From Sedimentisphaerales bacterium (GTDB lineage: Bacteria; Planctomycetota; Phycisphaerae; Sedimentisphaerales; Anaerobacaceae): a stretch of DNA of 37,509 bases. This document shows, one piece after another, positions 32,433-35,509 of the stretch. Numbering within the stretch: the first letter of the stretch is position 1; every line of letters begins with the position of its first letter. Below the pieces are notes generated by a model. That model worked only from the letters and a program-made list of their open reading frames with translations. It was not told the origin of the DNA and searched no databases. The DNA lies in assembly GCA_030611315.1 (NCBI GenBank), contig JAUWPZ010000021.1:1-37509 (forward strand), written 5' to 3'. The translations under genes and the position numbers were made by a program.

Positions 32433-32825
32433 GCCTGCCCCGTTTTTATCGGGGTTCGATATTCGATATTCTTTCCCCTTTTGCCTTTTTACTTCTTACT
32501 TCTCCTGTCCTCTGTCTCTATGTCTGTTAAAATAGACAACCTCTTCAATCAAAAGTGACGGTAGCGCAGAGGAAAAATCGAAAATTTCAAAATTTTTTAA
32601 CTCCTTTTGTAACAACAACTTAATCCTGCCAATCCCGCCAAAATACAGGCTGTTTTCGCATCAAACGTGCAAGTTCGCCCAATTATAGAAGGGGCGTCTT
32701 TTTCGCCCTCGACAAAAAGAAGCCCAAATACGAAATACTAACAACGAAATCCTGAACAAGCACAAATAACCTGAATTCAAAAACCAAAAACGTCAGCTTC
32801 ACAACACCGCTCAGATGTGCTGTTT

Positions 32826-32932: not shown

Positions 32933-33676
32933 ATGTCAAAAACCCGGGTCTCAAATCCTCGAAACGCTGGCTGCCGCAGTTGTTACTTCTCCGGCCGTAT
33001 CGCCCGGTCCCTGCATTGCCTGCTTAATCCACCCGTCCTCGCCCTCGATACCGACCGGGCTCGCTGGCCAATCGTCAAAAGCAACGATATCTGTGGCCGG
33101 TTCCGCCTCGCCCTTGCTCATCACATCGCCGACGACCCCGCCCCTAAGAACAGCCTCCCAATCCACACCGACCACCTCGGTGATTACTGCCTCATCCCGC
33201 TCACTCAGGGCCGGGCCGCAAAGGTTGACCCCGAAGACTATGCGCAGCTCGCGCAGTTCCGCTGGCACTGCAAAATCAACAGGACCGCCGCCTACGCCGT
33301 CCGCATAATCACACACAACAACAAGCCGAAAAGAATCTATATGCACCGGCAAATCGCCCGCACTCCCGACCATCTCGTCTGCGACCACATCAATCACGAT
33401 GGCCTGGAAAATAGAAAGAAAAACCTCCGGAATTGCACCCTCACCCAGAACAATGCAAACAGCCGCCCCTCGAAAAACTCCTCCTCGAAATACAAAGGCG
33501 TCTCCTGGAACAAATCCCGCCGAAAGTGGGCCGCCTTCATCAAAAAGAACGGCACCCAGTTCCACCTCGGCTACTTCCACGATGAATCCTCCGCCGCCCA
33601 CACTTACGATAATGCTGCCCGCAAATACCACCGCGAGTTTGCCGTTCTAAATTTCCCAATTTCGCCAGGCCGCTAA
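32933..33676 (+). CDS. HNH endonuclease with AP2 DNA-binding domain
   Basis: The middle carries an HNH_3-type nuclease segment (MHRQIARTPDHLVCDHINHD, GLENRKKNLRNCTLTQNNAN), and the C-terminus an AP2 domain (SKYKGVSWNKSRRKWAAFIK, YFHDESSAAHTYDNAARKYH, EFAVLNFP). HNH-AP2 proteins are homing-type or free-standing mobile endonucleases, often in phage and accessory DNA. The first ~80 residues do not match the usual start, and the true start could be internal. GAAGGACA precedes ATG 32933. The last ~15 residues recur five times downstream as relic copies, making this the living member of a local array. Confidence 0.85.
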   Translation: MSKTRVSNPRNAGCRSCYFSGRIARSLHCLLNPPVLALDTDRARWPIVKSNDICGRFRLALAHHIADDPAPKNSLPIHTDHLGDYCLIPLTQGRAAKVDPEDYAQLAQFRWHCKINRTAAYAVRIITHNNKPKRIYMHRQIARTPDHLVCDHINHDGLENRKKNLRNCTLTQNNANSRPSKNSSSKYKGVSWNKSRRKWAAFIKKNGTQFHLGYFHDESSAAHTYDNAARKYHREFAVLNFPISPGR

Positions 33677-34287
33677 AGCCGGAGTTTATCCGCCTCTGGC
33701 GGAACAGAGCCGCTAAAAAATTCCACGCAGAATTTGCAAACTTGAATTTCCCTGAGAACGCATAGCTGGAGCCTGACCGCCGAAGCCTTGGCGAAGGCGG
33801 AACAAAGCAGCTCGAAAATATCATGCAGAATTTGCTTCTCTAAACTTTCCAAAACCTCCGAAATGCAAACGTTTTACATTAAAATAGAACTTCCTTCGCG
33901 AAATACGCTTCACGCTTCACGAGATACGAGATTATCACGCCCAATTCGCAAACTTGAACTTTGAATCTGAAATCTGAAATCTGAAATCTGAAATTCCTCG
34001 CCCCCTGCATTGCAGGGGGTTCTTCTTCGTTTAGCCCCGCCACCTGTGGGCGGGGTCACCCTCAACCCGGCGGCCAACGCCGGGCATATTTAGCCCCCAC
34101 CCCTGTGGTGGGGGGCCTCTACATAATGTAATTCACGATTTATTGAGTGGGTTATGTTTAGCCGTCGCCGTCACGGCGACGAAATACGACATACGAAAAC
34201 GCCACGGCCAATTCGCCGCCTTAAACTTCCCAATCTGAAATCTGAAATTCCAGTTGCCACGGCCAATTCGCCTCCCTAAACTTCCCA
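33614..34287 (+). repeat. Array of six AP2 C-terminal tails (one intact, five relic)
   Basis: The coding sequence for AARKYHxEFAxLNFP occurs at 33614-33658 (inside the gene, AARKYHREFAVLNFP), 33709-33753 (AAKKFHAEFANLNFP, with its own stop at 33763), 33807-33851 (AARKYHAEFASLNFP), 33927-33962 (DYHAQFANLNF), 34185-34232 (YDIRKRHGQFAALNFP) and 34258-34287 (HGQFASLNFP). DNA differs mostly at synonymous positions. Copies 2 and 3 each begin just behind a hairpin and the bases GGCGGAACA; copies 4 to 6 are each followed by AATCTGAA-type units. Confidence 0.8.
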
Positions 34288-34357
34288 ATCTAAAATCTGA
34301 AATCGAAAATCGCAAATCGCAAATTCTTTCCGTCCTTCGCTCTTCGCTCTTCGTACT
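33677..34357. other. Non-genic mosaic of relic tails, hairpins and word repeats
   Basis: Between the converging HNH-AP2 and ion-channel genes. Contains the five relic tails, a TCCGCC-TCT-GGCGGA palindrome (33689-33703), a CCGCC...GGCGG palindrome (33777-33800), AATCTGAA units at 33963-33995, the hairpin cluster at 34001-34180, and CTTCG words after 34329. Confidence 0.7.
34001..34180 (+). repeat. Cluster of five GC-rich hairpins, three with TTTAG prefix
   Basis: CCCCCTGC-ATT-GCAGGGGG (34001-34019); GTTTAG plus CCCCGCC...GGCGGGG (34029-34055); CCCGGCG-GCCAA-CGCCGGG (34066-34084); ATTTAG plus CCCCCACC-CCTGT-GGTGGGGG (34088-34115); GTTTAGCC plus GTCGCCG-TCA-CGGCGAC (34156-34180). The stems differ in sequence yet keep the prefix and orientation. 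Confidence 0.75.
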
Positions 34358-35440
34358 TCATCCTTCGCTCTTCGCTGTCTTTTCCGTAAATTTGCCCGCA
34401 GGCCCACCGGCAGTAAACAAGACAGCAAACCGCGTCAACAACGCACCTAAAAGAACATAACCCAAAATCACCTGCAACATCAATAACGTCTGCCCGCCCC
34501 AACTATCAGGGTTCGCAGCGATATCGCCAAACCCTAATGTTGTCATTGTAACAACCGAGAAATATAATGCGTGCCAAAATCCTCGAATATCACCAACAAC
34601 GTTATTGACCATAACGCAACTCGGCCAAACCCAATAGACCACCGCAAATACAACCGCCAAACCAAAGAAAGTCAGTATAATTCGCCAAGTACTAAGCCCA
34701 TAATCACTAATCAACCAAAATGTCCAAATAAATAATCTTTTTAGAATACGTTGCCACCAGCAACCCTTTGTGTACCACTCCTCCCAATTCATTCGCCTTA
34801 TATTATATTCCAAAAGCTGTCTTTGACGAGGATGTATGCGTATGCTTCCCAAGCCAACACCTTCAAAATTTGTTTTTCTGTTAATGTTACAATCCCAAAT
34901 CAAGGTTTTGCCGTCAACAATAGCTCTTGAGAAATCTGCGCCTTGTATCGCCGCTCTGATAAGTCTGGCACCTTCCAGATGGGCTCCGGTAAGGTGGGCA
35001 TCTTCCAGATAGGCTTCGAGAAGGTGGGCATTTTCCAGATTGGCTCCGGGCAGGTCGGCACCTTGCAGATGGGCTCCGGAAAGGTCGGCACCTTGCAGAT
35101 TGGCTCCCTCAAGGTCGGCATTTTCCAGATGGGCTATGAGAAGGTCAGCATTTTCCAGATTGGCTCCCTCAAGGTAGGCATATTCCAGATGGGCTCTGAC
35201 AAGGTAGGCATTTTCCAGATGAGCTCTCTCAAGGTCGGCATTTTCCAGATGGGCTTTATAAAGGTCGGCGCCTCCCAACAAGACTTTCTCGTCGGGATGT
35301 TCTTCTTGCCATTTATTCCATTCGGTAATATCCTTCTTATCTGAGCAGCGTTTAAGAATTTTATACTGTTCTTCATTGTACTTGGGTTTGTCTTCCGGCT
35401 GCTCACGTTTGGGTTCAGACTTTTTCTTTTTTGCCATCAT
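34358..35440 (-). CDS. Pentapeptide-repeat ion channel (potassium-channel type pore)
   Basis: A 360-residue protein: a charged lysine/glutamate-rich start, about 24 pentapeptide repeats A(D/N/H)LxxA (from GGADLYKAHLENADL to IQGADFSRAIV) forming a right-handed quadrilateral helix, and a C-terminal two-helix ion channel with pore sequence FSVVTMTTLGFGDIA, where TLGFGD replaces the usual TVGYGD filter. The pentapeptide part is cytoplasmic and may sense or gate. ATG 35440 is chosen because AGAGG lies seven bases upstream; ATG 35503 would add 21 residues but has no ribosome site. The gene's end overlaps CTTCG repeat words. Confidence 0.88.
   Translation of the reverse strand: MMAKKKKSEPKREQPEDKPKYNEEQYKILKRCSDKKDITEWNKWQEEHPDEKVLLGGADLYKAHLENADLERAHLENAYLVRAHLEYAYLEGANLENADLLIAHLENADLEGANLQGADLSGAHLQGADLPGANLENAHLLEAYLEDAHLTGAHLEGARLIRAAIQGADFSRAIVDGKTLIWDCNINRKTNFEGVGLGSIRIHPRQRQLLEYNIRRMNWEEWYTKGCWWQRILKRLFIWTFWLISDYGLSTWRIILTFFGLAVVFAVVYWVWPSCVMVNNVVGDIRGFWHALYFSVVTMTTLGFGDIAANPDSWGGQTLLMLQVILGYVLLGALLTRFAVLFTAGGPAGKFTEKTAKSEG
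34960..35270 (-). repeat. 30-base tandem repeats inside the pentapeptide gene
   Basis: Period of 15/30 bases built on CTCCAGATGGGC- and AAGGTCGGCA-like units, corresponding to pairs of pentapeptides. Units are similar enough for recombination to change repeat number. Coding, not CRISPR. Confidence 0.75.
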
Positions 35441-35509
35441 TGTCCTACCTCTTTTCAATTCCTCATCCGCTGGCCGTCCCGATTTACTTATTGTTTTGGC
35501 CATTTTTGG

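Follow-up and report, generated by a model that had tools for sequence, protein, structure and literature searches.

The window analysed here, a stretch of DNA of 37,509 nucleotides that constitutes contig C186 of a 3.7-Mb draft genome (labels beginning with L, C and G denote the loci, contigs and genomes compared), contains an HNH-AP2 gene behind which the codons for the end of an AP2 domain recur five times, always on the + strand, in changing frames, and each time without a body. The question is how five such ends came to lie in tandem behind a gene that has an end of its own.

The HNH-AP2 gene and its six ends

The gene (32933..33676, + strand) encodes a protein of 247 amino acids, and its stop codon TAA lies inside GCTAAAGC. 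The AP2 domain (PF00847, residues 185-233) scores 34.4 bits against a cut-off of 33.3; the HNH match (PF13392) is weak, with 15 bits under a cut-off of 24.8 and an E value of 0.02, and residues D151 H152, N160 R161, N164 and R166 are invariant in six genes from the genome of the window. A Pfam search of the protein returned nothing beyond these two matches, and no rhs identity. Nearly all named relatives of the gene come from MAGs of Phycisphaerae/Sedimentisphaerales (Planctomycetota), and since the genome of the window has 10 AP2 loci, the gene is multicopy. The repeated motif, AARKYHxEFAxLNFP, which an earlier note on this DNA had taken for a genuine AP2 C-terminus, is indeed the C-terminal part of PF00847 and is present in 148/148 AP2 genes with complete domain ends that were collected from genomes of the family and the order, for the most part draft MAGs that belong to different genera. 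What is called the "tail" here is thus the AP2 domain's own end and not an appendage.

Tail 1, AARKYHREFAVLNFP (33614..33658, +), is in frame and is followed by GGCCGCTAAAGC (33668..33679, +), by its sequence what is left, out of frame, of the AAKA codons found just before YD in intact AP2 genes; the remnant is placed alike in L209 (twice), in L237 and in the split gene L083. Palindromic repeat 1, GGAGTTTATCCGCCTCTGGCGGAAC (33681..33705, +), leads into displaced tail 2, (R)AAKKFHAEFANLNFP (33706..33753, +, with the motif proper at 33709-33753), which closes with ENA and a stop codon (33754..33765, +). Palindromic repeat 2, GGAGCCTGACCGCCGAAGCCTTGGCGAAGGCGGAAC (33768..33803, +), leads into displaced tail 3, consisting of KAARKYHAEFASLNFP and KPPKCKRFTLK with a stop codon (33804..33887, +; motif AARKYHAEFASLNFP at 33807-33851) and homologous to the 3' end of C125. 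The other copies are displaced tail 4, YHAQFANLNF (33933..33962, +), which is abutted on its 5' side by ATACGAG heptads; displaced tail 5, (R)HGQFAALNFP (34200..34232, +); and displaced tail 6, (C)HGQFASLNFP (34255..34287, +). Palindromes ending in GGCGGAAC thus stand directly 5' of copies 2 and 3, ATACGA(A/G) heptads 5' of copies 4-5, and AATCTGA units 3' of copies 4-6. The earlier note had reported six tandem tails, five of them without a gene, with hairpins on the 5' side of two copies and repeat units trailing three, all of which is borne out on the + strand; its 34185 is slightly early for copy 5.

Arrays of 7-nt units (AATCTGA, ATACGAA, CTTCGCT) fill the intergenic DNA at 33898-33996, 34170-34199 and 34232-34400, abut tails at codon YH and resemble arrays in related genomes. 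Dispersed hairpins, TTTAGCCCC(GCC)..GGGG and CCCCCTGCA..TGCAGGGGG, lie at 34001-34114 and recur through the genome; the same hairpins occur in G000:C175 (twice), C67, C6 and C134. On the - strand, 34358-35503 encodes a pentapeptide-repeat protein fused to an ion-channel domain (PF00805, PF07885).

Upstream of the gene, nhmmer identifies a conserved non-coding element of ~175 nt with two ~20-nt direct repeats (32521..32740, +), which is present 5' of 73/105 HNH-AP2 genes of the family (nhmmer; alignment A2). The repeats are ~110 nt apart and co-vary within each element, with a mean identity of 11.1 of 17 positions compared to 10.2 after shuffling (0/5000 shuffles reach 11.1); in one genome both are GTGAACAT. 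The element has no Rfam match and no consensus RNA fold, and is perhaps a DNA binding or promoter element.

The body has the same domain architecture as HNH-AP2 homing-endonuclease-like genes, with nuclease activity and homing putative for the gene studied here, but many HNH-AP2 copies occupy conserved positions, beside pgpA or ahead of polA. A gene labelled pgpA-like from its N-terminal sequence alone lies 3' of HNH-AP2 genes at L061, L080, L207, L030, L203 and others, a position kept in about eight genera and unusual for a selfish homing gene. In five genera (L001, L279, L296, L307 and L146, which are G000:C18, G027:C312, G009:C55, G016:C288 and G063:C42), the HNH-AP2 frame stays open across a linker of 53-154 codons and continues into a protein downstream that resembles DNA polymerase I (N-terminus IIDGHA), a candidate HNH-AP2::PolA fusion; its linker in G009 holds a further tail scrap, KFASLNFP.

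Frequency and origin of the displaced ends

A profile of 14 residues built from 147 real gene tails has 20 sense matches (18 displaced tails with a score of at least 18) and 0 antisense matches in the same 138 kb of sequence 3' of the genes, compared to 1 match in 44 kb of sequence 5' of them, so the tails are not due to chance. Displaced ends are carried by 12/148 genes in seven genera of the family, one to five per gene, so that the window is the most extreme instance of something that recurs. One new case (L272) came from another set of named loci with 32 new genes, and the strict junction pattern described below was found in none of 392 other genomes of the phylum, among which there are few members of the family. 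Displaced HNH-AP2 ends occur, then, in a group of uncultured Planctomycetota.

The tandem, same-strand layout and the spacer sequence common to the units of L209 could be explained by local tandem or target-site duplication of the tail with subsequent divergence. Each displaced end has 8 to 22 mismatches over 42 nt with the tail of the gene it belongs to, however, and because none exceeds 34/42 nt identity with that tail, they are not local duplicates; a near-identical, recent local pair is not found among 18. The differences from the local gene are also codon-like, with a synonymous to nonsynonymous ratio of 139:140 where 58:221 is the neutral expectation, although the ratio is biased upward because the copies were found by protein similarity, and the lack of a near-identical local pair is the stronger argument. 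The displaced tail of L080 is identical to a sequence of another genus at 49/51 positions and to its own gene's tail at 37/51. Local duplication is accordingly improbable, in agreement with the earlier note, which held that the copies are not recent duplicates of the local gene: the relics are not closest to that gene with random substitutions. Its suggestion that they are 3' ends of different homologues also stands, as their kin differ (C175, C172, C125 and L265).

That the tails persist without a gene might alternatively mean that they are kept as functional DNA or RNA sites and are not coding relics at all. This reading is very improbable: their codons vary at synonymous sites, the older copies are eroded, and the tail region has no Rfam match above threshold that would indicate a structured RNA. 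A hidden palindromic target site within the tail, GGCGAATTCGCC, was tried as a candidate and rejected, since it occurs 11 times where 8.5 are expected from the codons, which is no enrichment.

Bodies, tails and palindromic junctions

The body and the final part of the AP2 domain evolve separately. The HNH-AP2 genes of L194 and L209, from two genera, have bodies that are 93% identical and tails that are 56% identical, with an abrupt break near codon DExxAAKAYD; between L040 (on C175) and L133, identity is 90% for the body and 65% for the current tail, and the displaced tail of L040 is nearer to L133 (32/42 compared to 27/42). The difference between body and tail identity sets array-bearing pairs apart from other pairs (permutation 0.0007, the pairs being not fully independent). 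The bodies of C186 and C175 fall into different subfamilies, but the two loci have in common a block of 86 bp comprising tail and palindrome, from codon K of tail 1 (33623) to GGCGGAACA (about 33706), which is 83/86 identical with ~70% identity on both sides; it is for this block only that a candidate donor of the new tail is indicated, in either direction. The end of tail 2 and palindrome 2, but not the tail itself, are common to C186 and C172, and tail 3 with its KPPK extension has its kin in C125. An exact run of 26 nt links tail 5 to the tail of the gene in L265, which ranks second among relatives of the body; this is modest evidence, as ~0.6 such runs are expected by chance over all comparisons. 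To judge from these alignments, body and tail of HNH-AP2 genes are decoupled: the last ~15-25 codons are replaced and the body remains.

This bears on the mechanism that the earlier note offered as one reading, in which whole HNH-AP2 genes insert serially at one hot spot and decay to their 3' ends. Such turnover would be served by a multicopy gene with 10 AP2 loci in the genome of the window and would leave tails from different homologues, as observed, but between the tails there are no bodies, HNH remnants or upstream elements, and tail-to-tail spacing is frequently just ~95-98 bp. Moreover, bodies follow the locus (the pgpA-adjacent HNH-AP2 genes form a single clade with SH-aLRT 98) while tails change. 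The proposal finds no support and is improbable.

Where displaced ends are abutted by a palindrome, GGAGYYTRTCCGCC..GGCGGAAC, the contact is at one fixed codon position, AKA|YD|KAA. A palindrome of the form CCGCC..GGCGG stands directly 5' of 8/18 displaced tails with a score of 19 or higher, seven of these eight ending in GGCGGAAC and one in GGCGGAC; one further junction in L209 has a degenerate palindrome and one in L152 a different palindrome. Palindromic junctions are always at codons AYD|xAA, and scraps of AAKA codons lie 5' of the palindrome in C186, C175, L209 and L237. In L083 (G009:C276), the palindrome interrupts the AP2 body after AAAKA; the coding text picks up again as KAAKKYHGEFAALNFP, and there is no new tail. 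L142 is split likewise, with only GGCGGAAC left of the palindrome. The palindromic repeat thus splits AP2 genes at AKA|YD|KAA, and replaced ends stay downstream, in sense, often right behind the palindrome. With its flanks, the palindrome has 11 matches in 161 genomes of the order, of which 9 are at AP2 tail junctions, one is beside rRNA-like sequence (G016) and one is in an intergenic double palindrome (G019); the bare core occurs at about 20 further sites in the genome of the window. An ordinary terminator function in these genes was considered and rejected because CCGCC..GGCGG seldom trails the stop codon unless there is a displaced tail as well: it lies within 80 nt past the stop in 7/139 genes, with a displaced tail right behind it in 5. 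In a second class of junctions, heptads or other AT-rich sequence are joined to codon YH (copies 4-6, L081, L082, L134, L150).

The array is likely to be a record of successive 3'-end replacements in one HNH-AP2 gene, by which the old ends were displaced, with recombination with paralogues near the insertion of the palindrome as the probable route. A REP/RPE-like palindrome would enter the AP2 gene at AKA|YD|KAA and sever its tail, a state that matches G009:C276 and, with the palindrome collapsed, G028. A second HNH-AP2 gene would then serve, by recombination or template switching that the hairpin stalls or guides, as the source of a functional tail, which would be copied in front of the palindrome together with its stop codon and a few bases of flank; the reading frame would thereby be restored, and AAKA and the palindrome would separate the old tail from the gene. 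Repetition would stack the tails with the newest adjoining the body, and the older relics (copies 4-6) would be eroded further by heptad repeats up to codon YH. Some observations run against serial replacement. Junction palindromes are missing from 8/18 displaced tails, which have heptads or other sequence instead; the tails of the relatives of C172 are like its current tail and unlike its displaced one; and the current tail 1 of G009:C256 fits the clade of the body about equally well. The latter locus consists of body, tail 1, palindrome, tail 2 and flank, and G016:C145 of body, tail and flank; tail 2 and flank of the former are ~95% identical to the latter, compared to 75% for the body and 71% for pgpA, an exchange may therefore have affected the segment itself, which leaves the direction at the pgpA locus ambiguous.

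The constancy of the junction codons could also be produced by a mobile unit of ~86-150 bp (functional AP2 3' end, stop codon and palindrome) that inserts at AKA|YD|KAA and replaces the end that it displaces. As a miniature palindromic element with its own functional 3' end, it would repair each break that it makes and stack, possibly mobilized by the HNH-AP2 protein or a resident Y1 transposase; five Y1_Tnp genes in the genome of the window are a possible source of mobility. The discrete 86-bp block in C186 and C175, diverged on both flanks, and the tandem units of similar make-up in L209 are as expected of such a unit, but C186 and C172 have only the last codons and the palindrome in common, L083 and L142 have a palindrome without a new tail, palindrome cores vary widely, and no free copy away from AP2 sequence was found. 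The mobile unit is a doubtful explanation, if a less improbable one than local duplication or whole-gene insertion; it would correspond, in miniature, to elements that enter a gene and restore it.

Relation to known systems

Some elements integrate at the 3' end of a gene and restore the gene, such as e14 in icd; they are of kilobase size and carry an integrase. The HNH-AP2 gene also gains a new 3' end and has its old one displaced, but no kilobase element or integrase was found with the tails. Literature searches on HNH-AP2 in Planctomycetes or on heptad repeats found nothing relevant, and those on e14/icd and on gene conversion with REP elements found nothing useful.

Among palindromic repeats, REP elements with GTAG/CGTC tetranucleotide tags are described (PMC3733652), whereas the HNH-AP2 palindrome has a 5' foot of GGAGYYTR and no such tag. 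Rickettsia palindromic elements, which are small repeats, insert into many unrelated genes and are translated in frame with them (reviewed in PMC10969869). The HNH-AP2 palindrome is also a small repeat that enters coding sequence, but it is found at one site of one family (9 of 11 matches in 161 genomes), and the gene either ends before it or is broken by it. The HNH-AP2 arrays would connect palindromic repeats with the repair of broken genes.

By analogy, the closest known process is the C-terminal displacement described for rhs genes (Jackson et al. 2009, PMC2935791), in which a conserved body has a replaceable C-terminus and old C-termini lie in a silent downstream array on the same strand (PMC2935791). 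The earlier note's view that such tail replacement is undescribed does not hold in the face of this precedent, but no precedent for HNH-AP2 genes or for the junction palindromes was found in the literature searched. As in rhs, the C-terminus of HNH-AP2 genes is decoupled from the body, old ends are retained downstream on the same strand, and a piece of the body's 3' end stays attached to displaced units, in this case the AAKA codons; the tails would be a layered fossil record of gene ends from which an order can be read. HNH-AP2 differs from rhs in belonging to an unrelated protein family, in having palindromes at its junctions and units of ~100 bp, and in that its displaced ends are all homologous AP2 ends: where rhs acquires a new, unrelated tip, HNH-AP2 exchanges ~15-25 codons of a conserved domain for their equivalent. 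C-terminal displacement would thereby extend from rhs genes, in which it yields diversity, to a nuclease-like family in which the swapped piece is functionally equivalent, so that the recombination process could be told apart from selection for diversity.
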